This document shows positions 1,286 through 18,931 of a stretch of 63,203 nucleotides of DNA, piece after piece. The first letter of the stretch is position 1. Each line of letters starts with the position of its first letter. The position numbers and the translations under genes are program-made. The notes beneath the pieces were generated by a model. It was given only the letters and a program-made list of their open reading frames with translations. It did not search any database and was not told the DNA's origin. The DNA is from an uncultured Blautia sp. Lineage in GTDB: Bacteria; Bacillota; Clostridia; Lachnospirales; Lachnospiraceae. The stretch lies in contig UQMI01000016.1 of NCBI GenBank assembly GCA_900542045.1, positions 1 through 63,203 on the forward strand, given 5' to 3'.

Positions 1286-2242
1286 TTACTCCGCCTCAAA
1301 AAATCTCCTGGGATTCTCCACCAGAAGAGTATCCAGATCTTTCTCCGTCAGCCCGTGTTCCAGCAGCAGCGGCAGAACATAGCGGTGAATATACCGGTAA
1401 TTATAAGGCACATCATCGGGATCTGTTTTTTTCAGTTCCTCCCATTCAAACTGTCCCAGATCCACAAAACACACATAATCATGGGAAATGATCAGCTGTT
1501 CCTTCCAGCCCCGTTCCCAGAGGGCCAACAGGGTCTCTACCCTCTTTTCCAGCGGATTCTTGGCATCATCTCCGAACCGGTCCAGGCCGATATAGCAGCC
1601 CCGGGACAACAGTTCTTCCAAGTATCCCAGATCATTGGTATCTCCGCAGTGTCCGATAAGGATTTTCTTTGGATTCAGGGAATACTGTTCAAAGATATCC
1701 ATCTGTCCCAGCCCGCTGCGGTTTCCATAATAGGAGTGTGTACCGATGGGCAGTCCGCTCTCCACTGCCGCCATGGCATGGGCATGGAGCATGATCTCAT
1801 TGATGGGAGTAATCCCTGCCACATCCGTGGCACATTTGATGATTCCCGGCTTACTGTCCGTTCCCTGGATTCCTTCTCTGATATCGATCAGCATATATTT
1901 CAGAAAACTTTCTGCCTTCCGGTTAAAGGTCCACTGATTCTCTGTATAGAAGAAACCTGTGGCAGCGATCAGCTGGATCCCCGTCTTCTCTGCCACATCC
2001 CGCATGGCATGGATATCTCTTCCCAGGCATACCGGCGTCTGTTCCACCATGGTCTTTACGCCGTATTCCATCGTCCGCCCCACATCCGTCACTGCCCGCT
2101 CCAGAAATTCATCGTACTGAAACCACGCGGCATAAGACTGGCGCATGGACCAGTTGGCCTGCAGAATATGTTCGTGCATCAATGTCACACCCAATGCATC
2201 TGTGGATATGGGACCCAGTACACCATTGATCATTTTGCTCAT
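1286..2242 (-). CDS. Phosphotriesterase-family metal-dependent hydrolase, probable lactonase
   Basis: This 318-residue protein belongs to the phosphotriesterase branch of the amidohydrolase TIM barrels, whose characterised bacterial members are often sugar-lactone or acyl-homoserine-lactone hydrolases. All binuclear metal ligands are visible: H23 and H25 (HEH), K136 (GIIKCATD, the lysine that is carboxylated in the family), H169 (IGTHS), H198 (IGHCGD) and D255 (ISHD). The start was placed at the ATG at 2242 because GGAGG precedes it with good spacing; the longer frame is only an overlap with the upstream gene. It is the last gene of the minus-strand sugar operon, 29 bases after the glycyl radical enzyme. 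I infer a cytoplasmic lactonase or esterase acting on an intermediate of that pathway. The substrate is unknown. Confidence 0.85.
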   Translation of the reverse strand: MSKMINGVLGPISTDALGVTLMHEHILQANWSMRQSYAAWFQYDEFLERAVTDVGRTMEYGVKTMVEQTPVCLGRDIHAMRDVAEKTGIQLIAATGFFYTENQWTFNRKAESFLKYMLIDIREGIQGTDSKPGIIKCATDVAGITPINEIMLHAHAMAAVESGLPIGTHSYYGNRSGLGQMDIFEQYSLNPKKILIGHCGDTNDLGYLEELLSRGCYIGLDRFGDDAKNPLEKRVETLLALWERGWKEQLIISHDYVCFVDLGQFEWEELKKTDPDDVPYNYRYIHRYVLPLLLEHGLTEKDLDTLLVENPRRFFEAE

Positions 2243-2271
2243 CTGTATTCGCCTCCTTCTGCTGTCTGGCC

Positions 2272-4575
2272 CTATACCAGCTGCTCCGTCCTGTGGATCA
2301 TCTCTTCCTGGGCTTTCTTTCCCATCTCCACAAAGAACGCACTGTATCCAGTCACCCGCACACAGAGATTCCGGTATTTGTCCGGATCTGCCTGAGCAGC
2401 CCGAAGCGTCTCTGCATCCACCACATTCACCTGCAGCTGCAGGCCTCCGTTCTGCATATAGGTCAGAAACAGCGCGCACATGGCATCCAGTCCGTCTTCT
2501 CCCTTCACTGCCGATGGATGGATCCGCACATTCAGCGGCCCTCCTGTGATCCGTTGAAACGGTACTTTAGACAGAGAATTGAGCATGGCCGTCAGGCCGG
2601 AAATATCTGTACCCTCTGCCGGAGACTGATTTTCGCTGATCTGCTCTCCGGCCCGTCTGCCGTCCGGTGTGGCTCCCACATACCGCCCCATGGTGGTAAA
2701 ATCTCTGTCCGTAGAGTAAGTAGGCCACATCTGATAGAGGTAATCTTCTCCATTATAGCTGTCCACTGCATGAACAAAGCAGTCTGTCACAACTTTTGCG
2801 TATCTGTCCACATCATCCAGGTCATTTCCGAATTTGTGGATCTTCTTTTTGAGACGCATGGACAGAAATTCGTTTCCGGCGTAATCCTGACGCAGGATTT
2901 CTGCCAGCTCTTTCAGCGTATACTCATGATCTGTAAACACCAGCTTGTCAATGGCATAAAGGGCATTTACCACTGTGGCCAGCCCGCAGCCCTGGGTTAC
3001 GATCTTGTGATACTTGGTGCCGCCTCTGGTCCAGGTCACGGCATCTTCAATGGTTCCCCGCAGGAAGCAGTCCTCGATCCGCATCCGGTTTCCGGTAACT
3101 TCCTTTTCCACATCAAAATCCATTTCAAAGCCTTTGCGGAATTCTCCCACCAGATAGGTCAGCTGCTGCTGGTAGATTTCCACAAATTCTTCCATGGACC
3201 GGATCTCGTCCAGATCTTTCGTCTCCACTCCATAGTAAGCCCCTGTCATCAGTCCGGTCATGCGGTCCTCAATCTTAAACTCACAGTCCCGGGGCTGGCT
3301 GCCAGCTCTGGGCTCCATGGGATAATCTCCCTGGAACAGGGCCAGTTCCAGCGGCTTAGCCAGATTAATCCATACCTGCCGCAGTCCCCCTTCGTCTGCC
3401 GGGATATTCGGGTCATTGCAGCCGAAGAAACCATAATCATATACCTCCGGCTCCTCCACTCCATAATATTGCAGAGCAGGAATCATCGTCTCGTCATTGT
3501 AAATGACCACTGTAGTATTTTCCCGCATGGCTCTGCACACAAGCCTCCAGAAATCTGCCGGGATTCCTTCATAATAACGCACTACAATAAACGGATTGCG
3601 CAGCTTCAGATCTCTGGCCGCCTCGATCATGACATAAGACAATTCGTTGACGCCGCCGGTCTGATCTGCTTTCTTCCCGGCCAGAATAATATAGTTGGGA
3701 TCGTCGAAGGCCACTTCCAGGGTATAATCCGTAGACTCTGTTTCTATGGACATATGGTCTGTCTGTACCATGATCTCGTTATTTTTAAAATAAAACTCAT
3801 CCAGAAGCTCCTGCGCTCTTTCCTTTGTCAGAATGCCTGCTTCCAGATCCTTCTGATAATACGGATACAGATACTGGTCCATCCGGCTTAAATTCAGCAC
3901 ACCACAGCCGCATACCTTCTGCAGGACCAGAATCACCATCCACAGAAGCTGCAGTGCCTGGGCAAATGTCTTTGCTCCCTCTCCGGCCACCTGCTTCAGG
4001 TTTTCGGCCAGATCACTGCGTCCGGCCTGTTCTGCCGCCCTGGCATATTTTTCGATATAAGCGCGGATGGCTTTGCAGCAGATCTCCACACCTTCCAGGA
4101 AGTACGACTGGTCTGCGCTCAGTCCGCCCTGCTCCCTGCGTGTGCTCACCTTATCCAGGAAGCCGTTCATGCCATGCTCCAGCATCATCTCCCAGTCCAT
4201 AGCCAGATGTCCAAAGGACGGAAACCAGTAAGGACGGCAGCGGATCCAGTTCTCAGAATAATAAAACAGGATTTTTTTGTGGCGTTCCTCTGTGGGAATA
4301 TCCCACCATCTCTGATAGACAGCTCTTACTTCTTTTTCTTCCTGCTCTGTGGGAACCCGGGTCACCACAGAACCGGCCAGAAGCTCGTCCTTTCCCACCG
4401 GAAGGCTGATTCCCTGAAGAATATGCTCCAGTGTATGTCCATAGGCCAGTGCCGGCTCTTCGGCTCCATACAATTTCTCTGCCTCCAGCACCAGCTCGAT
4501 CCTCTCCATAAACGTTTCTCTGTAATCTTTCCTGAACCAGGCGTCAATTCTGTCCTGCAATTCCTTTCTGACCAT
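2272..4575 (-). CDS. Glycyl radical enzyme of unknown substrate
   Basis: This is a 767-residue glycyl radical enzyme of the pyruvate formate-lyase/dehydratase superfamily. The glycyl radical loop is clear (RVTGYSAFF, radical Gly743, 25 residues before the C-terminus). The thiyl Cys is Cys386 in the motif FFGCNDP. It is not a pyruvate formate-lyase, because the tandem Cys-Cys is absent. It also departs from the Cys-x-Glu seen in glycerol, choline, hydroxyproline and hydroxyphenylacetate enzymes, since the base position holds Asp388. The start was set at an ATG with AAGGAG eight bases upstream. Its activase is the preceding gene. Surrounding genes are all sugar-related, so a carbohydrate-derived substrate (elimination or C-O/C-C cleavage) is likely, but this is inference. 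The enzyme would work only without oxygen. Confidence 0.88.
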   Translation of the reverse strand: MVRKELQDRIDAWFRKDYRETFMERIELVLEAEKLYGAEEPALAYGHTLEHILQGISLPVGKDELLAGSVVTRVPTEQEEKEVRAVYQRWWDIPTEERHKKILFYYSENWIRCRPYWFPSFGHLAMDWEMMLEHGMNGFLDKVSTRREQGGLSADQSYFLEGVEICCKAIRAYIEKYARAAEQAGRSDLAENLKQVAGEGAKTFAQALQLLWMVILVLQKVCGCGVLNLSRMDQYLYPYYQKDLEAGILTKERAQELLDEFYFKNNEIMVQTDHMSIETESTDYTLEVAFDDPNYIILAGKKADQTGGVNELSYVMIEAARDLKLRNPFIVVRYYEGIPADFWRLVCRAMRENTTVVIYNDETMIPALQYYGVEEPEVYDYGFFGCNDPNIPADEGGLRQVWINLAKPLELALFQGDYPMEPRAGSQPRDCEFKIEDRMTGLMTGAYYGVETKDLDEIRSMEEFVEIYQQQLTYLVGEFRKGFEMDFDVEKEVTGNRMRIEDCFLRGTIEDAVTWTRGGTKYHKIVTQGCGLATVVNALYAIDKLVFTDHEYTLKELAEILRQDYAGNEFLSMRLKKKIHKFGNDLDDVDRYAKVVTDCFVHAVDSYNGEDYLYQMWPTYSTDRDFTTMGRYVGATPDGRRAGEQISENQSPAEGTDISGLTAMLNSLSKVPFQRITGGPLNVRIHPSAVKGEDGLDAMCALFLTYMQNGGLQLQVNVVDAETLRAAQADPDKYRNLCVRVTGYSAFFVEMGKKAQEEMIHRTEQLV

Positions 4576-4636
4576 ATTGGCCACTCCTTTCCTGATCACT
4601 TTTTGCTCCGTAACAAAGCAGGTGCTCTGTCCGCTT

Positions 4637-5512
4637 CTAAAAGACCACCCGCGCATCCATCCTGGCTTTCAGCGCCTCCAGACGCGCCTGCTCCGGCTTC
4701 TGGAATACCGGAGCATCCATTCCCAGACTTTTTGACTTTTCCAGCCCCATGGTATGGTAAGGCAGCAGACGGATTTCTTCCACATTGGGATATTCTTTCA
4801 CAAAAGCAAACAAAGCGTTCGCATTTTCTTCCGTATCGTTGATTCCTGCCATAAGAGGTACCCGGATATGCAGCCGGACACCCCGTTTCATCATTTTCTC
4901 TGCATTATCCAGGATCCGGTCATTGTACACTCCTGTATACTTCCGGTGAAGCTCCCGGTCCATAATCTTCAGGTCCAGCAGCACCAGATCCACAAAAGGC
5001 AGAATCGCTTCATAACATTCCCAGGGCAGATTTCCAGCCGTATCCAGTGCGGTGGAAATCCCTTCTTCCTTTACCAGCGGAAGAAACTCCTGCAAGAATT
5101 TCCACTGCAGCATCGGTTCCCCGCCGGACACCGTGAGTCCGCCGCCGGAATTGTCATAATAACGCCGGTCTCTCTTCACCACAGCCAGCAGCTCCTCTGC
5201 TCCTATCTCATAACCAGATACCTTAATGGCATCCTGCATACAGACCGACTCACATTTTCTGCACAAAATGCAGTTCTCCAGGCCGATCCGGCGGTTATCC
5301 ACAATCCGCACGCCGGCCGGACACACTTGTTCACACATTCCACAGTGAATACACTTGTCTGCAAAATACTGCAGCTGGATCTCCGGCTGGTAGGATTCCG
5401 GATTGTGGCACCACTGGCACCGCAGATTGCATCCCTTGAAAAATACTGTTGTCCGGATTCCCGGGCCATCGTGGACAGAAAACCGCTGTATATTAAAAAT
5501 CCGTCCCTTCAT
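4637..5512 (-). CDS. Glycyl radical enzyme activating protein (radical SAM)
   Basis: The 291-residue protein installs the glycyl radical on the enzyme encoded next. The radical SAM cluster ligands are C28, C32 and C35 (GCNLRCQWC). A ferredoxin-like insert carries two further four-cysteine sets at C54/57/60/64 and C81/84/87/91, as in the activases of glycerol dehydratase, choline lyase and hydroxyphenylacetate decarboxylase, and unlike the shorter pyruvate formate-lyase activase. SGGEP, the SAM-binding motif, is at 129-133. I chose the ATG at 5512 with GTGGAG upstream, 16 bases after the epimerase stop; a TTG at 5551 is possible but would overlap that gene. The ferredoxin-type activase supports a dehydratase/decarboxylase-class partner. 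Confidence 0.93.
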   Translation of the reverse strand: MKGRIFNIQRFSVHDGPGIRTTVFFKGCNLRCQWCHNPESYQPEIQLQYFADKCIHCGMCEQVCPAGVRIVDNRRIGLENCILCRKCESVCMQDAIKVSGYEIGAEELLAVVKRDRRYYDNSGGGLTVSGGEPMLQWKFLQEFLPLVKEEGISTALDTAGNLPWECYEAILPFVDLVLLDLKIMDRELHRKYTGVYNDRILDNAEKMMKRGVRLHIRVPLMAGINDTEENANALFAFVKEYPNVEEIRLLPYHTMGLEKSKSLGMDAPVFQKPEQARLEALKARMDARVVF

Positions 5513-5528
5513 CTCTGTCTCCACTTCT

Positions 5529-6797
5529 TCATGATTCTTCTTTTCCGGCAAGCTTTTCCAGACGCAGCAGGCATTCCAGCATGGCGCGTCCGGTGTGATA
5601 CATGGCTTTCCATGGATTTCCCATCTGGGGCACCAATACCTCTCCTTTTTCGGTCAGGAGCTGATGCCATTCTCCCACACTGTGGCAGATCATATATGTG
5701 GTATCAAATTCCCAGTTTTTCCGGAATGCCTGGAAATACTCCTCTTCGCCGGTCATTTCATAGATATCCAGCAGACCAACCAGCGATTCGCAGTTCTGCC
5801 ACCATTCTTTGTCCCGCACCAGGGGTTCCCCTTCGTGAGGTCCATCCCGGTAAACGCCGCCTCTCTCCCAGTCAAATCCATATTTCAGGCCGTGGTCCAC
5901 CAGTTTCTGGCAGATGGTATCATAACCTCCGGAGGTATCTCCCATCACCTCTGCCGCCCGGTGCAGCAGCCACGCCAGTTCCATATTATGTCCGTAAGAA
6001 GTGGTATCTTTCGGGCTGTCGATGACTTCTCCCGTCTCCCTTTCTGCATTCCAGGTCCGCCGGATGTTGATGGCCGGCTTTCTATGGAAAGCAATATCAA
6101 ACTGATTATAGCCGCAGCCGATTTCCGGATTCACCATATGATCCAGTATCACATGGATGACTTCCTCCAGCTTCCTCTTATGAATTTCTTTTCCGGAACA
6201 TTCATACAGCGTGGTAAAAGCTTCCAGGGTATGCATATGAATATCCAGAGATTTCAGGTCCCCTGCGGCAAATCCCGGCTCTGCCAGTGTCCAGTCCCGC
6301 TCCAGATTCTCAAAATAGCCGCCGTATCTGGTATCTGCACAGTATTTCTGCAGAAGATCAAATGTTTTCTCCGCATAGGCAAGACCAACGGCATCGCCGC
6401 TTGCCAGCGTATATTCCGACAGGGCATAAATGGCAAAGGTCTGTCCATAGACCACTTTTCCATTATCCAGCACCTTTCCCTCGCGGGTGGTCTTCCAGTA
6501 CCATCCGCCATATTCCTCATCCCAGAAGTGACGGATAAAAAATTCCACACCCTGCTTTGCCAGGGGAAGATATTCTTTCTTTCCATATTTTCTGGCATAA
6601 TACGAATACGCCCAGATCATCCGGGTCTGCGTTACAATATACTTATCTTCCTGCTCTCTGGGATTTCCCTGTTCGTCATAACAGACCAGGTATCCTCCCC
6701 AGGTCTGGTCCACTCCTCTTTTTTCCCAGAAGGGCAGCAATTCTTTGTCAATATGGCATTTTATTTCCTGATATGCCTGTTCCAACTGCTCTTTCAC
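5529..6797 (-). CDS. AGE-family (N-acylglucosamine 2-epimerase / cellobiose 2-epimerase-like) sugar epimerase or isomerase
   Basis: This is a 422-residue (alpha/alpha)6-barrel protein of the AGE superfamily, which epimerises or isomerises sugars at C2 through active-site histidines. Family blocks seen are GHNMELAWLL, a WWQNCESL block and the C-terminal GNPWKAMYHTGRA. Length fits cellobiose 2-epimerase and sugar ketoisomerases of the YihS type. Translation starts at GTG (6797) behind AGAGGG. The gene lies between the GH2 glycosidase and the glycyl radical activase in one operon, so it probably acts on the sugar released by the glycosidase or on a disaccharide. No signal peptide, so it is cytoplasmic. 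Epimerase versus aldose-ketose isomerase cannot be settled from the sequence. Confidence 0.85.
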   Translation of the reverse strand: MKEQLEQAYQEIKCHIDKELLPFWEKRGVDQTWGGYLVCYDEQGNPREQEDKYIVTQTRMIWAYSYYARKYGKKEYLPLAKQGVEFFIRHFWDEEYGGWYWKTTREGKVLDNGKVVYGQTFAIYALSEYTLASGDAVGLAYAEKTFDLLQKYCADTRYGGYFENLERDWTLAEPGFAAGDLKSLDIHMHTLEAFTTLYECSGKEIHKRKLEEVIHVILDHMVNPEIGCGYNQFDIAFHRKPAINIRRTWNAERETGEVIDSPKDTTSYGHNMELAWLLHRAAEVMGDTSGGYDTICQKLVDHGLKYGFDWERGGVYRDGPHEGEPLVRDKEWWQNCESLVGLLDIYEMTGEEEYFQAFRKNWEFDTTYMICHSVGEWHQLLTEKGEVLVPQMGNPWKAMYHTGRAMLECLLRLEKLAGKEES

Positions 6798-6898: not shown

Positions 6899-8674
6899 TT
6901 ATCCTTCCTCTTCTGTGGCCTGGGCAAAGATGCTGCAGATCTTCTGATTCAGTTCCCTGACCACATCCTCCTGCAGCTTCACAAATTCCCGGTCATAGGT
7001 CAAAATTCCATTTACCTCTTCTTCAATATCTGATACCTGGGTATACACTGCCGCGGAAAGTCCCCTGGCAATATTAGGCAGGATATCCCGCTCGATCAGT
7101 CCCCGGTATCCTTCGGTCAATTCTTCCCTGCTCTTATAATCTTTGTATCCATAAATCTCATCGCAATAGCTGTGGCCCGGCATTCTCCAGGAATACCCGC
7201 CGTACTCCGTCAGAGCTACAACCCGTTTTTCCGGCTTTACTTTCAGAGGTCTCCAGTAATTATGAATACTGTACATATCACCGCCGCCCTGATCGAACCA
7301 GCCGCTGGCCTCGTCAATATGACGGGTGGGATCCAGCTTTTGTACCAGAGCAGAAGCTTTTGCCGCGTCAAACTGTCCCCATCCCTCATTGAAAGGCACC
7401 CACACACAGATACTTGGCACATTGTAGAGCTGTTTGATCATCCCCGTCAGCTCTTTTCTGTATTCTTCCCGTCCGGCCTTATCCTGTCTGGAAAATGCCC
7501 GGTATTTATTGTCTTTGATACATCTTCCGGTCCACATCAGCGCATTGGGCATGATGCAGACAAATTTCATATGGTAATCTGTACCTCCGTTGATCATATC
7601 CTGCCATACCAGCATTCCGATCCGGTCGCAGTGGTAATACCATCTGGCAGGCTCAATCTTCACATGCTTCCGGATCATGTTAAAGCCCAGATCCTTCATT
7701 TTCTGGATGTCATAGATCATGGCTTCGTCACTGGGAGGGGTCAGCAGGCTCTCCGGCCAGTATCCCTGATCCAGCAGCCCGTTGTGAAAACAGGGCTTTC
7801 CATTGAGGAAAAACCGCTTGATTCCCTTCGCATCCTCCCCTACGGTAAATTCCCGCATGGCAAAATAGCTTTCTATCCGGTCATCTCCCATGACCAGTTC
7901 CATCTGGTACAGGAAGGGATCTTCCGGTGACCAGTAATGAAACTCTCCCATATCCAGGAAGATCTGCTTCTCACTGGAAAAGACTGCTTCCTGGATCAGT
8001 TTTCCCTCTTCCAGGATCCGCACTGTCACCGGCAGATGTTCTCTTTCCCGGGAAAAGACTTTCAGCTCCACGCCTCCTCTGGAACATCTGGGCGTGATGC
8101 GAATGGATTCTATGTACTGTTCCGGCACCCATTCCATCCATACGGTCTGCCAGATACCGCTCTGTGCCTGATAAAACATCCCTCCCCGTTCCAGCTTCTG
8201 CTTTCCTCTGGCATGGTAAGAGGTGTCCGAATCATCCTGTACCGCCACATGAATCTCATTTTCCCCTTCTTTTAAGTAAGGCGTGATATCAAATGTAAAG
8301 GACAGATACCCTCCCTCATGGGAACCGGCCAGTTTCTGATTCACATACACTCTGCACCGCTGATCCACTGCCCCAAAATGCAGAAGCAGTCTCTGCCGGT
8401 CTGCCTTCCTGTCCGGGGTAAAATTTCTCTTATAGTGAAGATATTCTCCCGGCATCAGCACCTTTCCCACGCCGGATGCTGCTGCTTCCGGCGAAAAAGG
8501 CACCAGGATCTCTCCATCATAAGACAGTGGCTCTCTTTCATTCCTTGTAATGGCATACTGCCAGATCCCATTTAAGATTTCATAATTTTCCCGCACCATC
8601 TGGGGTCTGGGATATTCTGACAATGGGATCGTATTACGGTTTTCTGCATTCCATCTTGTATAAAGCTGCTGCAT
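6899..8674 (-). CDS. Glycoside hydrolase family 2 protein
   Basis: A 591-residue retaining glycosidase with the GH2 layout: an N-terminal sugar-binding beta-sandwich (about 1-180), an immunoglobulin-like domain (about 185-275) and a TIM barrel (about 285-580). The acid/base is E430 in VPFNEGWG and the nucleophile is E490 in ALTEYGGY. It lacks a signal peptide, so it would cleave glycosides after import by the neighbouring ABC transporter. A clean GGAGG precedes the ATG. GH2 covers beta-galactosidase, beta-glucuronidase, beta-mannosidase and related activities, and the specificity is not evident. The furanose-type transporter next door makes a furanoside substrate worth testing. It is about half the length of classical LacZ, lacking the LacZ C-terminal domains. 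Confidence 0.88.
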   Translation of the reverse strand: MQQLYTRWNAENRNTIPLSEYPRPQMVRENYEILNGIWQYAITRNEREPLSYDGEILVPFSPEAAASGVGKVLMPGEYLHYKRNFTPDRKADRQRLLLHFGAVDQRCRVYVNQKLAGSHEGGYLSFTFDITPYLKEGENEIHVAVQDDSDTSYHARGKQKLERGGMFYQAQSGIWQTVWMEWVPEQYIESIRITPRCSRGGVELKVFSREREHLPVTVRILEEGKLIQEAVFSSEKQIFLDMGEFHYWSPEDPFLYQMELVMGDDRIESYFAMREFTVGEDAKGIKRFFLNGKPCFHNGLLDQGYWPESLLTPPSDEAMIYDIQKMKDLGFNMIRKHVKIEPARWYYHCDRIGMLVWQDMINGGTDYHMKFVCIMPNALMWTGRCIKDNKYRAFSRQDKAGREEYRKELTGMIKQLYNVPSICVWVPFNEGWGQFDAAKASALVQKLDPTRHIDEASGWFDQGGGDMYSIHNYWRPLKVKPEKRVVALTEYGGYSWRMPGHSYCDEIYGYKDYKSREELTEGYRGLIERDILPNIARGLSAAVYTQVSDIEEEVNGILTYDREFVKLQEDVVRELNQKICSIFAQATEEEG

Positions 8675-10486: not shown

Positions 10487-10499
10487 TTTGCCTTCCTCC

Positions 10500-11483
10500 T
10501 TATGCAGTTTCTGTCTCTTTCTTTCCGTTTCTTCCTTTTAATTTGAATACATCTGACTGTACACCAATAGAAATCAGAATCAATACGCCCATGATGATAT
10601 TCTGCCACCAGGAATTCAGATTTCCGGCATAGTTAAAGATCGTTGTAATTACTGTAATGATCAGGATACCAAAGAACGTTCCGGAAAACTTTCCTTCTCC
10701 GCCGGAAAGTTTAATGCCGCCTAAGGCACACATGGCAATTGCCGTAGTCTCCCAGGTATCACCTGCTGTAGGCTGACAGGTTAACAGACGGGATCCCAGC
10801 AGCATGCCCGCAATGGCGGAAAACAGTCCGCACATAGTATAAGCGCCGATCTTAATCCTTGCTACCGGAAGCCCCATCATTTTGGCCGCCTCTTCATTTC
10901 CGCCTACTGCATAAATTCCCAGACCAAACCGGGTATTTCTGGCAATATGCATACACACAAGAGTCAGAATTACCAGGAAATAAACCAGCAGATTAATTCT
11001 GGCAATGCTTTCCCCTCCCAGGGCTTTCAGTACTTCATTCTCCACAGGGATGGGTTTCTTATTGGTGAGCAGAAGAACCACGCCCCGCAGCCCCAGCATC
11101 ATGGCCAGTGTGGCAACCCAGGAAGAAATCCGAAGCTTTGCCACCAGCCATCCGGTAACAAGGCCGCAAACAATTCCTACCAGAAGTCCAAGAATAATTC
11201 CCAATAACGGATTGGTATTTCCAAACATGGCCATTACTACGCCAGAAAGAGCCAATACCGAACCGACAGACAGATCAATCTGTCCGATCAGAATAACAAA
11301 AGTCATTCCAAGAGCCAGAAATCCTCCGTCACTGGCGGCTTTTCGCATAAGATTTGCCAGAGAATTGAAAGAGAAGAAATTCCTGTCCGCAAACACGATC
11401 GATGAAAAAATAAACAAAATCAAAAATGCCGTTACATAACTTCTTGACGTAAACCAGCTGTATATTTTCTTGCCTTTACTCAT
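10500..11483 (-). CDS. Sugar ABC transporter permease (RbsC family, YjfF-like position)
   Basis: A 327-residue integral membrane protein of the RbsC/branched-chain permease family, with about nine or ten hydrophobic segments and the conserved IDLSVGSVLALSG block near residue 80. It forms the membrane channel with the adjacent paralogous permease. The ATG at 11483 is preceded by AAGGGGG. It begins 13 bases after the other permease stops. Two different permeases with one ATPase and one binding protein is the layout of the E. coli galactofuranose importer YtfQRT-YjfF, where ribose systems use a single permease gene. Confidence 0.88.
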   Translation of the reverse strand: MSKGKKIYSWFTSRSYVTAFLILFIFSSIVFADRNFFSFNSLANLMRKAASDGGFLALGMTFVILIGQIDLSVGSVLALSGVVMAMFGNTNPLLGIILGLLVGIVCGLVTGWLVAKLRISSWVATLAMMLGLRGVVLLLTNKKPIPVENEVLKALGGESIARINLLVYFLVILTLVCMHIARNTRFGLGIYAVGGNEEAAKMMGLPVARIKIGAYTMCGLFSAIAGMLLGSRLLTCQPTAGDTWETTAIAMCALGGIKLSGGEGKFSGTFFGILIITVITTIFNYAGNLNSWWQNIIMGVLILISIGVQSDVFKLKGRNGKKETETA

Positions 11484-11496
11484 TTCGAATTCCCCC

Positions 11497-12459
11497 TTAT
11501 GAAACCTTTTCACGCTGGATATACACAGCTACGATGATAATGATCGCTTTAAATACCTGCGCATATTCATAAGTAATGTTGTTCATATTTACCATGATCG
11601 TAATCAGCTGCATGATCAGTGCTCCGATCACGGATCCGAATACACGGGCACGTCCGCCGGACATACTGGTTCCGCCAACTGCAACTGCTGCGATGGCATC
11701 CAGTTCTGCCAGTTCCCCAAGAGAGTTTCCGTCTGCCGCCCCAATCTTCGCTGTGGCAAATACACCAGCCAGTGCAGCCAGAAATGCGCTGGACATATAG
11801 ACAAACATCAATGTCTTTCCGGTATTGATACCTGCCAGAGTAGCAGAATTGGGATTATCGCCAGTTGCCTGAATGTGCCGTCCCAAAATCGTCTTTTCCA
11901 GAATAAAATAAACAACTACAACAGAAAGCACAATGGGAATCAACTGAATCGGGAATAATCCTCCGATCTTGTAAGATCCCAGCATTTTATACATATCTGC
12001 ATTGGCACTTGTATCCATATACAGGATTTTTGCATCATTCAAAATCTGTGCCACACCTCTGACACCGATCATCAAAGCCAATGTAACAACCATGGACTGC
12101 ACACGCAGTTTACCTACCATAAATCCGGCAATCAATCCGGAGACCAGACATACGAGGAGAGCCGCAATGATAGCCGGAACTACCCCGTAAGACAACATTT
12201 TTACGGACACCATTCCTGACAGCGCCATTACCGCACCCACAGAAATATCGATTCCCCCCGTGGAAATAACCATGGTCATTCCCATACCGGTAAGAATAAT
12301 AGTACAGGACTGCGTGATCACATTCCATAAAGTACCAATGCTGAAAAAGTTTGGCGTAATAATCAGATTCAATATAATCATAATCGCCAGCAAAATCGCG
12401 GCACTGTATCTTCTGAGAGTTTCCATCTGATCCACTCTCGATGCTTTTGAGCCTGCCAT
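11497..12459 (-). CDS. Sugar ABC transporter permease (RbsC family, YtfT-like position)
   Basis: A 320-residue multi-spanning permease paralogous to the next gene. The family block GGIDISVGAVMALSG is near residue 70, and a second glycine-rich block (GGTSMSGG) near 245. The start at 12459 lies four bases after the ATPase stop and has a GGGGG ribosome site. The longer frame extends into the ATPase gene and is not used. It probably forms a heterodimer with the second permease for import of a pentose, hexofuranose or related sugar. Confidence 0.88.
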   Translation of the reverse strand: MAGSKASRVDQMETLRRYSAAILLAIMIILNLIITPNFFSIGTLWNVITQSCTIILTGMGMTMVISTGGIDISVGAVMALSGMVSVKMLSYGVVPAIIAALLVCLVSGLIAGFMVGKLRVQSMVVTLALMIGVRGVAQILNDAKILYMDTSANADMYKMLGSYKIGGLFPIQLIPIVLSVVVVYFILEKTILGRHIQATGDNPNSATLAGINTGKTLMFVYMSSAFLAALAGVFATAKIGAADGNSLGELAELDAIAAVAVGGTSMSGGRARVFGSVIGALIMQLITIMVNMNNITYEYAQVFKAIIIIVAVYIQREKVS

Positions 12460-12463
12460 AAAT

Positions 12464-13990
12464 CTATTCCCCCTTCTCTGCAAAAGCTTTTCCGGCACTT
12501 GCAATTGCTCCCATGATATTGTCCTGATTGATCTCATCGTCAATCAGTTCTGTCAGCTTCACGCCTTCACGCATTACCACAACCCGGTCACAATTACGCT
12601 GCAGCTCTGCGATTTCCGAAGAAATCATCAGAACGCTGATACCGGTTGATGCCAGTTCCTGGATCAGTTCCTCGATCTCTGCCTTGGCTCCCACATCAAT
12701 ACCGCGGGTAGGCTCATCCATGATCACAAGCTTCGGATTCATGCAAAGCCACCTGGCCAGCAGCACCTTCTGCTGATTACCGCCGCTTAAGTTTCGAATA
12801 GCCTGATTGGGCGACGGAGTTTTAATTTTCAGACGGTCAATATACTGCTTCACAATCTTATCCTGCTCTTTTCGATTGACCACACCAAGTTTGCTGATCC
12901 GGGGCAGCAGAGCAATGGTCATATTCTCTTTTACGGAAAGATGAGGAATAATTCCTTCCACTTTTCTGTCCTCTGTACAAAAGCCCATACCTGCTTTGAT
13001 CGCATCTCCCGGAGATTTCAAATGTACCTGACTTCCCATCCAGATCACTTTTCCCTCATCCGGCTGTGTAGCGCCAAACAGTACCTTTGCCAGTTCCGTA
13101 CGCCCGCTTCCCAGAAGGCCTGCCAGTCCCAGAACCTCACCTTCCTTGATATCGATGCCGATTCCATTTAAGCGCACACCCTGGCGAATATTTTTCATAG
13201 CGGCAACTTCTTTTTTATCATCAAAACAGTAGCCGGATTTTGTACGCTCCAGCTGCTTTGCTTCTTTTCCGATCATATAAGAGATCAGCTTCAGCTGATC
13301 CAGCTCTTCGATCCCAAGACTTCCGGAAAGTTCGCCGTCTTTCAGGATCGTAACCTTTTCACAGATTTCAAAAATCTCATCCAGTCGATGACTGATAAAG
13401 ATAACTGCAATATTTTTTTCTTTTAACTTCCGGATTACATCAAATAATACGGCAACCTCTTTTTTGTCCAGAGAAGAGGTCGGTTCATCCATAATCACCA
13501 GTTTTGCGTTAATGGAAATGGCACGTCCAATGGCCACCATCTGCTGAACAGCCGTACCATACTCTCTCAATGGTCTTGTCACATCAATATGTATACCCAT
13601 TTCTTTCAGAACTTCATCTGCTTCCCGGATCATTTTCTTGCGGTCCACAGTGCCGAAGCTGGTTCTTGGCTCTCTTCCCAGATACATGTTTTCATAAACG
13701 GTCTGAAAAGGCACCAGATTCAGTTCCTGATAGATGGTACTGATTCCTTCTTTCTGCGCTTCGATGGCAGTCTTCGGGTTAATGGATTTCCCGTCAAACA
13801 AAATCGTACCTTCATCCTTCTGATAAATACCGGTCAACGTTTTGATCAGTGTAGATTTACCTGCTCCGTTCTCTCCCATAAGAGCATGGATTTCTCCTTT
13901 ATTCACCACAAAGTCCACGCCTTTCAACGCACGGACGCCGGGAAAAGTTTTCACGATTCCCTTCATCTCTAACAATACTTCTTTACTCAT
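12464..13990 (-). CDS. Sugar ABC transporter ATP-binding protein (RbsA/YtfR type, two ABC domains)
   Basis: A 508-residue protein with two fused ABC domains, typical of sugar importers of the ribose/galactofuranose class. The first domain has Walker A GENGAGKS at 39-46. The second has the usual degenerate Walker A (GLLGSGRTE) and a clear LSGGNQQK signature followed by DEPTRGID. It energises the two permeases downstream. GAGGTGAG precedes the ATG. A hairpin-terminator separates it from the binding-protein gene, which should reduce its expression relative to that gene. Confidence 0.93.
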   Translation of the reverse strand: MSKEVLLEMKGIVKTFPGVRALKGVDFVVNKGEIHALMGENGAGKSTLIKTLTGIYQKDEGTILFDGKSINPKTAIEAQKEGISTIYQELNLVPFQTVYENMYLGREPRTSFGTVDRKKMIREADEVLKEMGIHIDVTRPLREYGTAVQQMVAIGRAISINAKLVIMDEPTSSLDKKEVAVLFDVIRKLKEKNIAVIFISHRLDEIFEICEKVTILKDGELSGSLGIEELDQLKLISYMIGKEAKQLERTKSGYCFDDKKEVAAMKNIRQGVRLNGIGIDIKEGEVLGLAGLLGSGRTELAKVLFGATQPDEGKVIWMGSQVHLKSPGDAIKAGMGFCTEDRKVEGIIPHLSVKENMTIALLPRISKLGVVNRKEQDKIVKQYIDRLKIKTPSPNQAIRNLSGGNQQKVLLARWLCMNPKLVIMDEPTRGIDVGAKAEIEELIQELASTGISVLMISSEIAELQRNCDRVVVMREGVKLTELIDDEINQDNIMGAIASAGKAFAEKGE

Positions 13991-14049
13991 ACTTACTCAC
14001 CTCAAGCTTAACCGGAAAAGTCCTGATACTCTTCCCCACACTGTTTTGT

Positions 14050-14100: not shown

Positions 14101-14204
14101 CTAAATCGTTTAGTGACAAATTCCTGCTGTCAATTCACTGCTCTAGTCCACATATTCTGTCTATGTATTGTTACAGCAATCGTACGTCTTCGAACCTTAT
14201 CAAA

Positions 14205-15335
14205 TTAGAAACCTAAAGATACATCTGCATTGTTGATGTCGTACAGGGTATCCTCATTCATAATTTCTGACGGAACCTCTTCTCCAGCTTCCAGTCTGGC
14301 AATTGTCTCAAAAGAGATTGGTCCGAACAATGGAGAACAAGAACAAGAGCAAAGCTGTTCACCAGCCAGGATAGCTTCCATAGCTGCTGCCGGTCCGTCA
14401 ATACCGCCTACCAGGATGTCTTCACCCGGTACATAACCAGCTGCCTTGATGGCTTCGATTGCACCCAAAGCCATATCATCGTTGTGTGCAAATACCATAT
14501 CGATCTCATCGCCCTGTGCCTGCAGAATATTTTCCATTACGGACTGTCCTTCTGCCATAGTATAGTTAGCCACCTGATCTGCCACAACTACGATGTCTGT
14601 TCCTTCAATGGCATTCATAAATCCTTCCTGTCTGTCATTGGTAGAGGTTGCACCCTGTGTACCCTGAAGGATTACGCAGTTTCCTTTTCCGCCGGTTGCT
14701 TCAATAAATTTGTTGGCAACCTGCTCTGCCTCCCAGATGAAGTCAGACATAATTGCGATCGTATAGTCTTCGCCTGCTGTTCCGTTGATTCCACGGTCAA
14801 CCAGGATTACCGGAATTCCTGCGTCCATAGCACTCTTGAAAGCAGTCTGAAGTCCGTCTTCTTCCTGCGGAGCAGCGATAATATAGTCAACGCCCTGCGC
14901 AACCATATCTTCAATATCGGATGCCTGTTTTGCAATATCAGCGCCGGCATCTGCAAATACCAGTTCCACGCCATACTCATCAGCTGCAGCCTGGATACTC
15001 TCTGTCTCTGCGATTCTCCAGCTGTTCATATTATCACACTGTGAGAAACCTACTCTTAATCCTTCCAGAACGGTCATATCTGTGTCGGAAGGATCCCCAT
15101 CCGGAATAGATGAATCAGCAGATGCCTCTTCTGTAGATGCTTCCTCTTCTGCTGCCGGTTCTTCAGTCTCCTCCGCAGGAGCCTCTGTCTCTTCTGCAGG
15201 AGCTTCTGTTTCTTCTGCAGGGGCCTCTGTTTCCGCTGCGTCTGTAGATGCTGTGTCACTGCTGCCGCCGCCACAGCCAAATAATGTCACACTCATTGCT
15301 GTTGCCAGCATCACTGCTACAATTTTTCTTTTCAT
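14205..15335 (-). CDS. Sugar ABC transporter substrate-binding lipoprotein (YtfQ-like)
   Basis: A 376-residue periplasmic-binding-protein type I lipoprotein. The signal peptide ends in the lipobox LFGC (Cys21), followed by an acidic low-complexity linker (about 30-80) built from EAPAEET repeats. The binding domain starts at LRVGFSQCD and contains the segments VILVDRGI and FAHNDDMALG typical of this family. The order GFSQ...SWR...ETESIQ resembles YtfQ, the galactofuranose-binding protein, more than ribose RbsB. It should capture the sugar outside the membrane for the permease pair. AAGGAGG precedes the ATG. In the upstream gap the -10-like TATTAT lacks a good -35, as expected for an activator-dependent promoter. 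Confidence 0.87.
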   Translation of the reverse strand: MKRKIVAVMLATAMSVTLFGCGGGSSDTASTDAAETEAPAEETEAPAEETEAPAEETEEPAAEEEASTEEASADSSIPDGDPSDTDMTVLEGLRVGFSQCDNMNSWRIAETESIQAAADEYGVELVFADAGADIAKQASDIEDMVAQGVDYIIAAPQEEDGLQTAFKSAMDAGIPVILVDRGINGTAGEDYTIAIMSDFIWEAEQVANKFIEATGGKGNCVILQGTQGATSTNDRQEGFMNAIEGTDIVVVADQVANYTMAEGQSVMENILQAQGDEIDMVFAHNDDMALGAIEAIKAAGYVPGEDILVGGIDGPAAAMEAILAGEQLCSCSCSPLFGPISFETIARLEAGEEVPSEIMNEDTLYDINNADVSLGF

Positions 15336-15454
15336 TTCTTATTCCTCCTTCTTTTTTGAAGTTGTCCTTACACATAATATTCTATCTGCTTACTTTCGCA
15401 TGGTACATAAAATATCTTTGAATTTTCTTTCAGATTTCTCCAATCACTTAAATT

Positions 15455-17047
15455 TTAAAGTTTTTTATTTTCTTTCTTATAAGCCGAAGGCGCAATTCCG
15501 TAAGCGCTTTTGAACACGGTGCTGAAATACGTGGGATTGGAAAAACCACACAGTTCTGCGATCTCATAATTTTTCAGTTCTGTTTCTTCCAGCAATTTTT
15601 TTGCCTGCTCCATCCGAAGCTCTGTCAGATACTCCACAAAGGTTTTTCCCGTCCCCTGCTTAATAATCACACTCAGATATGAATTGCTTACATAAGCTGC
15701 TTTAGCCACATCTTTGATCTGCAGAGTGGGATTCATGTATTCCTTCTGCATAAATTCTTTTGCTCTTTTTAAAATGCTGTCAAATTTTCCCTGATTGATA
15801 TTTTTAAAGAAATCATTAATAATATGACAGACATCCTTCAGATAATTCACAATATCTTTCCGGTCAGTATTTGTCACAATTTTCCGGTAATACTCCATGG
15901 GATCTCCCAGAACCTCCTCTGCTGTACTGGAAACCTCCTCCGGAAGCTTCATCAGTTCCGCATATAAATTGCTGACCAGCAGCATGACATGCATATGAGA
16001 ACTGACATTCTGTTTTTCCATCTCCATTTCAAAATAATCCAGTTCCCTGTCAATGGCATCATAACTGCCTGTCCGTACTTCTACCAGAAGATTTGTGGCA
16101 TCATAACTCATATAGCGAAAAGAACCTTCCCTGCTGCTTTCCACCCGGACAATATCATCCAGCACCTTACGATATTCCATCTGCTGCTTCTCCCGGACTC
16201 CCTGATAGACATGCCTCAGTCCTTCCAGTCCGTATCCCACTTTTCCTGAACAGATATGCATATGCTTTTTGTTCCCGTATTTTTCCTCCAGCTTCTTCTG
16301 CAGTGACTGGTTCATCTTCCGAAGGACTTCTTTCTCCTGATTCCACTGACAAATCACCCGCTCTCCCATGCTTACCCGGACACAGATGGTATTTTCAAAA
16401 TTCCGGACCACGCTCTGCACGTCCTCCTGAAATTCCCTGTCCGCATCTGCCAGCTGCAGGTAATCATAATTCAGTTCCACCACCGGAAATCCCTCCTGGG
16501 AAATGATCAGCACAGTAAAATAGAGTTCTTCTGCTTCTTCCCGGATTCTTCCATTTACCTGCCCCATATCTCCCTGCAGGATCACCATTTCAAACAAATT
16601 TTTCTGTGCCTGCAGACGGTTATAGTTTTCCCAGCTTTTCAGCCTCTGGTATTCCGCGTTTCTCTCCTTTTTGGTGGAATGCTCCTGATAGATCCGTCCC
16701 ATTACTTCTTCCAGTTTCCGTATATTCAGCGGTTTCAGGATATAATCAGACACTCCCAGCTTCATGGCGCTCCTGGCGTATTCAAAATCTTCATATCCGC
16801 TTAAGATCACTGCCGATGTATCGTTATTTTCGTTTCGAAGCTCCTGAAGCATCTGCAGGCCATCCATGACAGGCATCCGGATATCCGTCAGGATCACATC
16901 CGGATTTTTTTCCCGGACAATCTCCAGCCCCTGTTTTCCGTTCATTGCCTCTCCTACCACTTCATATCCCAGTTTATTCCAGTCTATGTAAGATATCAGT
17001 CCTTCCCTGATGATGTCCTCATCTTCCACGATCACCAGCTTCATCAT
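15455..17047 (-). CDS. AraC-type response regulator (YesN family)
   Basis: A 530-residue transcription factor with an N-terminal receiver domain (phosphoacceptor Asp55, acidic patch VEDED at 7-11, conserved Thr/Lys region), a central region of about 300 residues, and a C-terminal AraC double helix-turn-helix ending in the GFSNPTYFSTVFK block. AGGAGG lies nine bases before the first of two ATGs. It overlaps the kinase gene by 29 bases, so the two are translationally linked. Its most likely target is the binding-protein promoter just downstream. This family commonly activates carbohydrate uptake operons in Firmicutes. Confidence 0.9.
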   Translation of the reverse strand: MMKLVIVEDEDIIREGLISYIDWNKLGYEVVGEAMNGKQGLEIVREKNPDVILTDIRMPVMDGLQMLQELRNENNDTSAVILSGYEDFEYARSAMKLGVSDYILKPLNIRKLEEVMGRIYQEHSTKKERNAEYQRLKSWENYNRLQAQKNLFEMVILQGDMGQVNGRIREEAEELYFTVLIISQEGFPVVELNYDYLQLADADREFQEDVQSVVRNFENTICVRVSMGERVICQWNQEKEVLRKMNQSLQKKLEEKYGNKKHMHICSGKVGYGLEGLRHVYQGVREKQQMEYRKVLDDIVRVESSREGSFRYMSYDATNLLVEVRTGSYDAIDRELDYFEMEMEKQNVSSHMHVMLLVSNLYAELMKLPEEVSSTAEEVLGDPMEYYRKIVTNTDRKDIVNYLKDVCHIINDFFKNINQGKFDSILKRAKEFMQKEYMNPTLQIKDVAKAAYVSNSYLSVIIKQGTGKTFVEYLTELRMEQAKKLLEETELKNYEIAELCGFSNPTYFSTVFKSAYGIAPSAYKKENKKL

Positions 17048-18812
17048 CTTCAGGAGCCTCCTCTCTCTTCGGTATTGTCACATAAACCCTTGTCCCTTTA
17101 TGGTACTCACTTTCAAAGCGCAGGCCATATTCCGGTCCAAAGTATGTCTTGATTCTCTTCTGTACATTGATCACTCCATAAGATTTCGGATTATATTCAA
17201 TTTCTTCCTCTATCATACGTCGCAGCTCTTTCATCTTTTCTTCCGGTATTCCGATACCTGTATCTTCCACACAGAAAATGATTTTATCCGATAAGTTTTC
17301 TGCGCTGATCCTGATCCATCCCGGGTCCCCTTTTTCCTTCAGACCGTGATAAATGGCATTTTCCACAAGGGGCTGCAGGATCATCTTGATCGTAGTATAC
17401 CTGAAAATTTCACATGGCACATCTATTTTGTAATTTAAGATGCGGCTGTATCGGATTTTCAGAATCTGGAAATATTTCTCCACATGACACAGCTCTTCTT
17501 CTATGGTAATAAATGTGCGCCCTTTGCTCAGACTGATTCGAAACAGCATGATCAGAGCATCTATCATTTCGCTGACCTCATCATTCCGGTTCATCCGGAC
17601 CATCCAGTTGATAGAGTCCAGCGTATTATAGAGAAAGTGAGGATTGATCTGGGCCTGCAGAGCATTCAGTTCTGCTTTCAGGAGCATTTTCTGATTTTCC
17701 TGCTCTCTTTTTGTCATCTGTTCGATCTTACTGGTCATGACATTAAATCCATTGGTCAGATCCCCCAGCTCATCCTCCCGGTTATTGCCGACCCGTACAC
17801 TGAAATCCCCTTCTTCCACCTTCTGCATCCCATTTTTCAGCTTTCGGATAGGCACAGAAATCCAGTGTGACACACTGAACGCATAAAATACCGACAACAG
17901 CACACACATGACAATGATGAAACTCAGCAGATTCTGCACTTTCATTACATCGCCGAACACATCGTTATAAGGAATCAGGTTTACCAGCTTCCAGTCTGCG
18001 ATTCCCAGCGAATCTTCATACAAAAGATAATGGGTATCGCCTACCCATACTTCCTGGAGGATTTCTCCGTCCTGTTTCTGGCTGTTCCTCAATACTTCAG
18101 AAATCTGCTTATTCTTATCGTTTTTGATGTTTTCAAAATCCGCACAGTATATAATCTCATTTTGTCTGTTGGCCAGGTATGTTTCTCCATTAAACAGAGC
18201 AATATCATTGTCCAGCCCCAGGATAACCTCCATAGCCACATCCACTACCACGACACCCAGACTCCTGTAAGAAATCCTGTCACGGATCGGTATCACCAGA
18301 CTGATAACCGGATCATACAGATTATGTACCACAAACGAACCTGCGTGAGGCTCCATCCAGTAATCCTCTCCTGTATCCATGACATACAGATACCAGAATT
18401 CATTGCGATAATCCTGTTTATACAGAGTTCGTTCTGCCGAACGGTAAATCGAACCATTTTCACCGATCACAAATATACCCTGTATATTTTCATTCAGCTG
18501 GCCGGTATACCGCAGAGCATAATTAAAATTGCGCCGTTCTTTATATAACTCCTGCTGCTCCGTAGGAAGCTCCGAACGAAGAGCAACCTGCATATCAGAA
18601 TCCTGTGCGATCAGATATGCCATATCCTTTGCTTCTGTCAGCACTTTATTCATACTTTCATTCAGCTGCTCCATGCTCTTGGTTACCGACTCCTCCGACA
18701 GCCGGTAAATGGTAGTCTGTGATACGTTATAGATTAAAATGCTGCACACGACAAATATGGCCAACAGTGACAGAAACAGCAACAGTATTTTTATTCGTAT
18801 GGACTTTCTCAA
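17019..18812 (-). CDS. Sensor histidine kinase (YesM family)
   Basis: A 597-residue membrane kinase: a transmembrane helix near the N-terminus, an extracellular sensor (Cache-like) domain of about 250 residues, a second helix, HAMP, a His_kinase domain with NPHFLYNTLDSIN (phosphoacceptor His), and a C-terminal ATPase domain with N-box NAIYHGL and DTGIGIP. I prefer a TTG start at 18812 because AAGGAG sits eight bases upstream; the ATG at 18848 adds 12 residues and has no ribosome site. It pairs with the overlapping AraC-type regulator. The sensor probably detects the sugar directly or through the binding protein. A strong promoter lies at 18903-18931. Confidence 0.9.
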   Translation of the reverse strand: MRKSIRIKILLLFLSLLAIFVVCSILIYNVSQTTIYRLSEESVTKSMEQLNESMNKVLTEAKDMAYLIAQDSDMQVALRSELPTEQQELYKERRNFNYALRYTGQLNENIQGIFVIGENGSIYRSAERTLYKQDYRNEFWYLYVMDTGEDYWMEPHAGSFVVHNLYDPVISLVIPIRDRISYRSLGVVVVDVAMEVILGLDNDIALFNGETYLANRQNEIIYCADFENIKNDKNKQISEVLRNSQKQDGEILQEVWVGDTHYLLYEDSLGIADWKLVNLIPYNDVFGDVMKVQNLLSFIIVMCVLLSVFYAFSVSHWISVPIRKLKNGMQKVEEGDFSVRVGNNREDELGDLTNGFNVMTSKIEQMTKREQENQKMLLKAELNALQAQINPHFLYNTLDSINWMVRMNRNDEVSEMIDALIMLFRISLSKGRTFITIEEELCHVEKYFQILKIRYSRILNYKIDVPCEIFRYTTIKMILQPLVENAIYHGLKEKGDPGWIRISAENLSDKIIFCVEDTGIGIPEEKMKELRRMIEEEIEYNPKSYGVINVQKRIKTYFGPEYGLRFESEYHKGTRVYVTIPKREEAPEDDEAGDRGR

Positions 18813-18902
18813 AGTAAAACTCTCCTTGTATTCTGTATATCCCTTCATTTTCCAGGCAGAAAGAACTGTATTCTCACAATCTTCCTGTTTTTGGAGGTTT
18901 TA

Positions 18903-18931
18903 ATTATAAGTCACAGCCTACATTATGTAAA
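18903..18931 (-). promoter_or_regulatory. Predicted sigma-A promoter for the two-component/sugar operon
   Basis: On the minus strand TTTACA (18926-18931) is followed after 17 bases by a perfect TATAAT (18903-18908). It lies about 90 bases upstream of the kinase start and is one of the best promoter matches in the window. It suggests basal, constitutive sensor production. Confidence 0.75.

Follow-up and report, generated by a model that had tools for sequence, protein, structure and literature searches.

A glycyl radical enzyme with a C-X-D cysteine loop in a putative furanoside utilization cluster of an uncultured Blautia

The stretch of DNA analyzed here, referred to below as the window, comprises 63,203 nucleotides of contig UQMI01000016.1 from an uncultured Blautia sp. 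of the Lachnospiraceae. Its minus strand carries thirteen closely spaced open reading frames (ORFs; 1286 to 18848) that encode a two-component sensing system, an ABC importer, several candidate sugar-converting enzymes, and an oxygen-sensitive glycyl radical enzyme (GRE) with its activase. The initial annotation had described thirteen same-strand genes of these families, and ORF calls, Pfam, and NCBIfam bear this out. The features, with the basis for each in brackets, are as follows.

17019..18848, minus strand: YesM-type sensor histidine kinase with dCache, HAMP, and His_kinase domains, 609 amino acids (aa) (Pfam)
15455..17047, minus strand: YesN-type response regulator, receiver plus AraC HTH, 530 aa (Pfam)
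14205..15335, minus strand: GafA/YtfQ-type substrate-binding protein (SBP), 376 aa (alignment to Escherichia coli YtfQ)
12464..13990, minus strand: ABC transporter ATPase with two ABC domains, 508 aa (Pfam)
11497..12459, minus strand: ABC permease 1, 320 aa (NCBIfam scan)
10500..11483, minus strand: ABC permease 2, 327 aa (NCBIfam scan)
9416..10486, minus strand: Zn-dependent MDR dehydrogenase, putative sugar dehydrogenase, 356 aa (Pfam, NCBIfam)
8755..9357, minus strand: SIS-domain isomerase, HxlB-like, 200 aa (132.4 bits against a curated cut-off of 160)
6899..8674, minus strand: GH2 glycosidase, nearest to GH2 group III (furanosidases), 591 aa (Pfam, structure matches)
5529..6797, minus strand: AGE-family epimerase, GTG start, 422 aa (Pfam)
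4637..5512, minus strand: GRE activase with radical SAM and ferredoxin-type domains, 291 aa (TIGR02494, Pfam)
2272..4575, minus strand: GRE, CXD subfamily, 767 aa (Pfam, NCBIfam, alignment)
3412..3423, minus strand: GRE cysteine loop Gly385-Cys386-Asn387-Asp388, C-X-D not C-X-E (alignment)
2347..2349, minus strand: Gly743 codon of the glycyl-radical loop RVTGYS (Pfam, alignment)
1286..2242, minus strand: PTE-family metal hydrolase, putative sugar lactonase, 318 aa (Pfam, NCBIfam)
18903..18931, minus strand: promoter-like TTTACA-17-TATAAT upstream of yesM (motif scan; matches near chance frequency)

Ten of the proteins were searched against Pfam, and every one of them exceeded the gathering score for one or more families; for the SBP and the two permeases, only NCBIfam was used, and no equivalog cut-off was reached there. 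Most refined starts are preceded by a Shine-Dalgarno-like stretch, as judged by eye. The end of the region in the initial annotation, 18931, is the start of the promoter-like match, and such matches occur in the region at close to chance frequency (33, versus a shuffled mean of 27.6). Terminator-like sites, which fall on both strands (27, versus 14.9 on average after shuffling), were not used as evidence. Catabolite-responsive cre sites are fewer than expected (two one-mismatch matches in the window, both outside the cluster, versus a shuffled mean of 8). The arrangement of the cluster is not due to chance, as the gene order is conserved in relatives.

The GRE matches PF01228 (85.9 bits) and PF02901 (330.1 bits), and its activase scores 339.8 bits with TIGR02494, well above the cut-off of 174.35. 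Homologues were taken as the best 120 of 472 proteins, and 43 of these 120 plus the window protein make up alignment A1. In a second, 23-row alignment of family members, from which GRE ORFs of 600 aa or less were excluded (L017, L021, the main GRE of L024, L025, and L031), the catalytic cysteine is present in all rows, and the glycyl loop reads VTGYS in 21 and ITGYS in one of the 22 rows that reach it; the GRE of L010 lacks the loop because its contig ends. The C-X-E motif has been described as conserved among GRE eliminases (PMC7077986). All 23 family rows have C-N-D at this site, whereas 26 other GRE ORFs of more than 600 aa have C-X-E in 21 cases and C-X-D in none. Among the matches listed, 115 of 117 full-length homologues read GCNDP and two read GCNNP. 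In the latter pair (P0055 and P0098), either the Asp may be dispensable or the proteins may be inactive. Further positions characteristic of the subfamily are the invariant Arg399, DDPN at 291 to 294, and Asp623-Arg624, each found in 0 of the 26 other GREs in a single automatic alignment at 23 to 32% identity, by which alone pocket residues were judged. Arg114, at first taken as a second carboxylate ligand and a family mark, was withdrawn, as 9 of the 26 also have Arg there.

This GRE falls below the curated cut-off in all 12 models listed as matches (e.g., HpfG, 344.6 of 1000; HypD, 297.2 of 1100; CutC, 230.1 of 1050), and none of the equivalogs tested (HypD, CutC, HpfG, HpsG, HPAD, indoleacetate decarboxylase, and PFL) reaches its cut-off. 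The nearest named relative among the matches listed, at 80%, comes from a Blautia metagenome-assembled genome (MAG). Structure comparison puts the predicted fold close to the eliminases, with VIA-align rows tied within 1 Z, so that we name no single closest GRE. Glycerol/propanediol dehydratases give the best sequence matches, but membership was rejected, as the Glu, His-Ser, and Asp positions are altered: His281/Ser282 of glycerol dehydratase correspond to Gly225/Val226 and Asp447 to Arg399. Gly-Val at 225-226 is shared by 10 of the 26 other GREs, and His274 by 3. Judged by its sequence, then, the GRE is a member of a distinct, uncharacterized subfamily with a predicted eliminase-like fold, in which the cysteine, the glycyl loop, and the activase are kept. 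We consider it probable that the GRE represents a new CXD subfamily and is an eliminase directed at carbohydrates.

The gene neighborhoods of relatives connect this subfamily with galactonate metabolism. A nonexhaustive genome scan with the GRE alignment and two peptide patterns gave 49 loci, of which 27 with at least 43% identity (L001 to L026 and the fragment L031) were taken as true relatives; the remaining 22 have 26 to 32% identity. Neighbors were called by script and tblastn, and representatives were named with Pfam and NCBIfam; counts cover flanks of up to 10 kb and are lower bounds, as many loci stop at contig ends, and L004 and L005, identical copies on one contig, are counted twice both here and among the 23 rows. 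The activase is present in 25 of the 27 loci, and the other two are cut inside the GRE by contig ends. Recurrent neighbors include a GafA-like SBP (at least 40% identity; 13 loci), the ATPase (45%; 15), the PTE-family hydrolase (55%; 9), the galactonate dehydratase DgoD (55%; 8), the SIS protein (60%; 7), the dehydrogenase (60%; 6), GH2 (50%; 5), AGE (55%; 5), the KDPGal-type aldolase DgoA (45%; 3), and the KDGal kinase DgoK (27%; 2). The order in L003 is importer-ADH-SIS-DgoA-activase-GRE-PTE-DgoK-DgoD (ADH denoting the dehydrogenase), without GH2 and AGE, and that in L011 is importer-ADH-GH2-DgoA-PTE-DgoD-activase-GRE-DgoK, without SIS and AGE within the stretch seen. DgoD scores 641.7 (L001), 640.3 (L007), and 688.9 (L026) bits against a cut-off of 311, which is equivalog level for galactonate dehydratase; DgoK is identified by PF05035 (106 and 136 bits) and the aldolase by PF01081. 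The link extends across phyla, as DgoD also adjoins the GRE in L007 (Synergistaceae) and L026 (Spirochaetales). At the level of whole genomes, 14 of 23 GRE genomes have a DgoD match (E ≤ 1e-40), 13 of them at 57% identity or more (partial in G412 and in two pieces in G124) and one at 44%; DgoK occurs in 7 of the 23, and in the L006 genome DgoA and DgoD share a contig that is not that of the GRE.

A cluster of the same type exists without the GRE. In Lactonifactor longoviformis DSM 17459 (the L002 genome), the dehydrogenase orthologue and the GRE lie on different contigs. The 20-kb Lactonifactor stretch L057 reads, on one strand, YesM-YesN-SBP-ATP-PERM1-PERM2-ADH-SIS-GH2-AGE-DgoA-PTE-DgoD-DgoK, that is, the window-type cluster minus the GRE plus a complete Dgo set. 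The Lactonifactor GRE has its own neighbors: GldA, a protein without a Pfam hit that we take to be AroE-like, a cupin-type GPI, a second PTE protein, a KDPG-type aldolase, a 2-hydroxyacid dehydrogenase, and an ADH.

To assess co-occurrence, we sampled 397 Lachnospiraceae genomes from a larger group. Three of them have the GRE (E ≤ 1e-150), as does 1 of 64 genomes of the genus to which the L001 genome belongs. The dehydrogenase (E ≤ 1e-110) occurs in two, both GRE positive (Fisher P = 3.8e-5), and DgoD (E ≤ 1e-130) occurs in 15, two of them GRE positive (Fisher P = 0.004); in the third GRE genome, DgoD lies in two pieces beside the GRE. The two best-scoring GH2 relatives (60 to 61%) are those of GRE genomes. 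Ten GH2 homologues occupy ranks 3 to 12; G228, which lies on a short contig, was omitted, and in the surroundings of the other nine, tblastn at 1e-8 detected none of the partner genes (SBP, permeases, dehydrogenase, SIS, AGE, PTE, and Dgo genes), the only matches being a distant ATPase (L112 and L117) or YesM/YesN (L116 and L118). We also examined the surroundings of DgoD in ten DgoD-positive, GRE-negative genomes. In two of the loci (L091 and L092), DgoK, DgoA, and DgoD stand with a distantly related ABC system, and at about 10.8 to 12.4 kb weak activase/GRE matches of another kind (52 to 119 bits) lie beside the Dgo genes. From these small numbers, it appears that the full cluster and the GRE accompany each other from genome to genome, even where they are not linked, and that simpler sets of importer and DgoD exist without the GRE.

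The import and glycosidase genes suggest a furanoside. The initial annotation had proposed furanose-type import, which fits well: the SBP is most similar to YtfQ/GafA structures and keeps the Arg38/Asp111 pair of E. coli YtfQ (the Trp-Arg and Asp-Arg motifs align there, and setting the Arg to 38 puts the Asp at 111), a pair that, in excerpts of the GafA study, makes room for galactofuranose (PMC10191376). The best structures for GH2 are 7sf2, then the beta-D-galactofuranosidase 9j6n/9j6m, and then 7xyr, far above other GH2 structures. In the part of the source considered, 9J6M (GH2_18) and 7XYR (GH2_19) both belong to furanosidase group III (PMC12243196); for the top match, 7sf2, there is a family name only, group III membership being stated for the other two. 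The NE acid/base motif is kept (VWVPFNEGWGQ, versus TWVPFNEAWGQ in 7sf2). No signal peptide was seen on GH2 by eye, no prediction having been run. Furanoside use is thus supported at the level of protein families. Galactose is favored over arabinose as the sugar because of the Dgo genes of the relatives.

Two further enzymes are compatible, by family, with oxidation and lactone hydrolysis. The dehydrogenase and the PTE-family hydrolase, whose family includes lactonases, could serve as galactose dehydrogenase and galactonolactonase. The initial annotation had proposed oxidation to a lactone and hydrolysis, and its assignment of GH2 as the pathway glycosidase also fits. A sulfoquinovose pathway, which combines an AGE-family isomerase, a lactonase, and a GRE, was rejected: the AGE protein gives 399 bits to 8h1k versus 39.7 to the sulfoquinovose isomerase 7ag4, and the HpsG/HpfG scores of the GRE fall far short of the cut-offs.

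The gene content, the protein families, the synteny, the altered cysteine-loop motif, and the co-occurrence are direct results; the substrate, the order of the steps, and the reaction of the GRE we infer as follows. A furanoside, most likely a beta-D-galactofuranoside, would be sensed by YesM/YesN, taken up by the GafABCD-type ABC importer, and cleaved inside the cell by the furanosidase-related GH2. The Zn-dehydrogenase would oxidize the released hexofuranose to the 1,4-lactone, which the PTE-family enzyme would open to the aldonate. In relatives, DgoD, DgoK, and DgoA would convert the aldonate to pyruvate and glyceraldehyde 3-phosphate (the De Ley-Doudoroff route); in the organism of the window, the Dgo genes would lie elsewhere; tblastn with DgoD, DgoA, and DgoK queries from relatives gave no match in the window. 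The GRE, switched on by its own activase, would most likely be an auxiliary radical eliminase acting on a sugar or sugar acid of the pathway. By eliminating water or a different C-O leaving group, it would yield a deoxy-keto compound or an aldehyde that may feed the same end reactions or serve as an electron acceptor. The backbone of furanoside import, cleavage, and De Ley-Doudoroff oxidation seems to us rather likely, its phosphorylative form because some relatives carry DgoD, DgoA, and DgoK; that this backbone and the carbohydrate-directed CXD eliminase are both correct as stated is close to an even call, falling just short of one. A further claim, that the GRE founds a new radical-enzyme class, an eliminase that has the C-X-D loop and active-site Arg399 and dehydrates an unphosphorylated sugar acid or furanose, strikes us as rather unlikely.

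The interpretation in the initial annotation is partly upheld. It was right to single out the GRE, whose key residues and activase are in place, and right that the cluster has no kinase or aldolase; the pathway that it did not recognize is likewise a gene combination that we did not meet in searches of the open PMC literature. Its non-phosphorylative, GRE-ended pathway is not supported, since relatives carry the KDGal kinase (L003, L011, and L057) and the KDPGal-type aldolase (L001, L003, L011, and L057) beside the same genes. Nor do the steps form one obligatory unit, given the complete Lactonifactor cluster without the GRE and the absences of GH2, SIS, or AGE in L003 and L011. That Lactonifactor cluster is literally the case that the initial annotation had named as refuting, yet in the 397 genomes the dehydrogenase occurs in only two, both GRE positive. 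Radical dehydration may or may not be the last step: the GRE and galactonate dehydratase are linked, yet both are present in several of the clusters.

Among the alternatives, it is unlikely that the GRE is itself the aldonate dehydratase, abstracting H from C2 and expelling the C3 hydroxyl to give the 2-keto-3-deoxy acid in place of DgoD. Between AGE and PTE, the window has the activase and the GRE where L057 has DgoA, and it is without the DgoD-DgoK that follow PTE in L057; L002 and L018 have a second PTE and a KDPG-type aldolase with no recognized dehydratase gene except the GRE; and Arg399, at the Asp447 position of glycerol dehydratase, could bind a carboxylate. In L012 and L014, the GRE is accompanied by PTE, SIS, and AGE, and no DgoD match was obtained in their genomes, but these records are MAGs and may be incomplete. 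Such an enzyme would often be redundant, since DgoD stands with the GRE in 8 of the 27 loci and on another contig in the L006 and L002 genomes, and the second supposed carboxylate ligand, Arg114, recurs in those 9 of the 26 other GREs. Quite improbable is a YbiW-like C-O lyase that acts by opening the ring of an anhydro sugar or by breaking a glycosidic ether, freeing a sugar for oxidation: the fold is shared, but YbiW and PflD are only 28% identical to the window GRE and keep CXE, no phosphotransferase system (PTS) gene is among the thirteen, and the cluster has no aldolase. That the GRE is a mere neighbor, acting on an unrelated co-imported substrate under common regulation, would agree with the GRE-free L057 and with the variety of contexts described below; we consider it very improbable, as the dehydrogenase occurs in the 397-genome sample only with the GRE (unlinked in one genome) and the GRE-DgoD neighborhood recurs in Lachnospiraceae, Synergistaceae, and Spirochaetales. 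An L-arabinofuranoside is the least probable of these, since the relatives' DgoD is at equivalog level for galactonate dehydratase and the Phe40 site of the arabinose-only GafA is Glu in both the window SBP and E. coli YtfQ, as read from alignments.

Several results weigh against our preferred combination of a De Ley-Doudoroff backbone and an auxiliary GRE. According to excerpts of the respective studies, GafA proteins bind L-arabinofuranose as well as galactofuranose compounds (PMC10191376), and GH2 group III includes arabinofuranosidases beside galactofuranosidases (PMC12243196). The top NCBIfam scores of the dehydrogenase are for threonine dehydrogenase and IolM models, all below cut-off. 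Those enzymes oxidize secondary alcohols. SIS and AGE have no required role in the scheme. One decarboxylase is at least as close in fold as the sulfonate-type eliminases, so elimination is not proven by the fold by itself. GRE and activase queries found no match in the 20-kb L057 stretch. GH2 relatives (E ≤ 1e-120) occur in 79 of the 397 genomes, 77 of them GRE negative, and the GRE-negative L090 has a GafABCD-like importer (SBP, 41%; ATPase, 56%) with DgoD and a KDPG-type aldolase; with L091 and L092, it indicates that the pairing of DgoD with sugar importers is not special to the window GRE. The co-occurrence statistics depend on three GRE-positive genomes, and the 27 loci, having been found via the GRE, cannot show how frequent the cluster is without it. 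No DgoD was matched at 1e-40 in nine of the 23 GRE genomes, which, with the GRE-free Lactonifactor cluster, suggests that the GRE also serves other contexts. These include an FGGY kinase and a PF04115-type protein (L013, L016, L018, and L023), the PF04115-type protein in Spirochaetes (L019, L020, L025, and L026), an FGGY-like kinase with GldA and a DeoC/LacD-type aldolase (L008 and L022), AGE, SIS, and PTE with another ADH and a Gfo/Idh protein (L012 and L014), and URO-D proteins. Since sugar importers, dehydrogenases, lactonase-type hydrolases, and aldolases recur beside the family but no single pathway does, the best reading is that the GRE acts on a class of substrates derived from carbohydrates.

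Some other features of these loci deserve mention. A small protein related to L018:8511-8999 adjoins the activase/GRE in 8 of the 27 loci (L013, L016, L018, L019, L020, L023, L025, and L026) and is possibly a partner enzyme for the GRE product; it is assigned to PF04115 (ureidoglycolate lyase-like) by Pfam runs on L013 and L018 only. The loci L002, L018, and L026 share the AroE-like protein without a Pfam hit, the GPI-type cupin, and the 2-hydroxyacid dehydrogenase, to which L002 and L018 add the second PTE and the KDPG-type aldolase; this set may represent a second sugar pathway linked to the GRE. Proteins of the URO-D family flank the GRE or lie near it at L015:7775-8734, L015:12318-13304, and L008:16244-17233. 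In L004 and L005 (JAQVCW010000004.1, 59022-81340 and 96139-118457), a 22,319-bp GRE-cluster stretch occurs twice, letter-identical and about 37 kb apart, from recent duplication or as an assembly artifact. Downstream of the GRE cluster in an uncultured Blautia MAG is a phage-type integrase (L001:11074-11991), a possible sign of cluster mobility. In the window itself, dnaA (45836-47191) and mnmG (52171-54090) indicate that the stretch likely spans the origin region and that the cluster probably lies near the replication origin. An ordinary SAM riboswitch (32067-32167) lies upstream of an S-adenosylmethionine synthetase gene (30592-31785).

If the GRE does found a new class of dehydrating radical enzymes, it would add a radical branch to De Ley-Doudoroff/Entner-Doudoroff-type sugar breakdown for anaerobes (Lachnospiraceae, other Clostridia, Synergistaceae, and Spirochaetes). 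Many abundant human-gut GREs have unknown functions (PMC11574389). The present subfamily can be recognized by GCND, DDPN, and Arg399 and occurs in the DSM-deposited L. longoviformis DSM 17459; as there are few candidate substrates (galactofuranosides, galactonate, and related aldonates), a direct test of its reaction is feasible. In searches of the open PMC literature, most subscription papers being outside this scope, we found no paper joining a GRE with galactonate, galactofuranose, or the gene set of the window, and the papers met there that contain such words together concern other subjects by title and abstract.

The cluster overlaps partially with several known systems. With the GafABCD (YtfQRT-YjfF) importer it shares SBP homology and the Arg38/Asp111 equivalents, and Gaf importers with catabolic genes and furanosidases have already been described (PMC10191376, in part); to these systems the window adds YesMN, a GH2 nearest to group III, a PTE-family hydrolase, and the GRE, and some relatives add Dgo genes. 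The best characterized relative of the window GH2 is the group III beta-D-galactofuranosidase/alpha-L-arabinofuranosidase 9J6M (GH2_18), from which it differs in having no secretion signal by eye. YbiW and PflD, the 1,5-anhydroglucitol- and anhydromannitol-6-phosphate (AG6P and AM6P) lyases, are GREs that act on a sugar-like ring and have the same fold as the window GRE (8id7 and 8id0), which nevertheless lies outside the AG6P/AM6P lyases: their loops read GCIE and GCVE and the window's GCND, and their substrates are phosphorylated and made by the PTS, according to part of the source (PMC12441222). More generally, the GRE eliminases (B12-independent glycerol/propanediol dehydratase, CutC, HypD, IslA, and HpsG/HpfG) have C-X-E where the window GRE has C-N-D. 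The complete De Ley-Doudoroff set of DgoD, DgoK, and DgoA stands beside orthologous genes in L057, L003, and L011; compared with that pathway, the window is without a Dgo gene, the putative dehydrogenase is of the MDR family and the putative lactonase of the PTE family, and the GRE is an addition.

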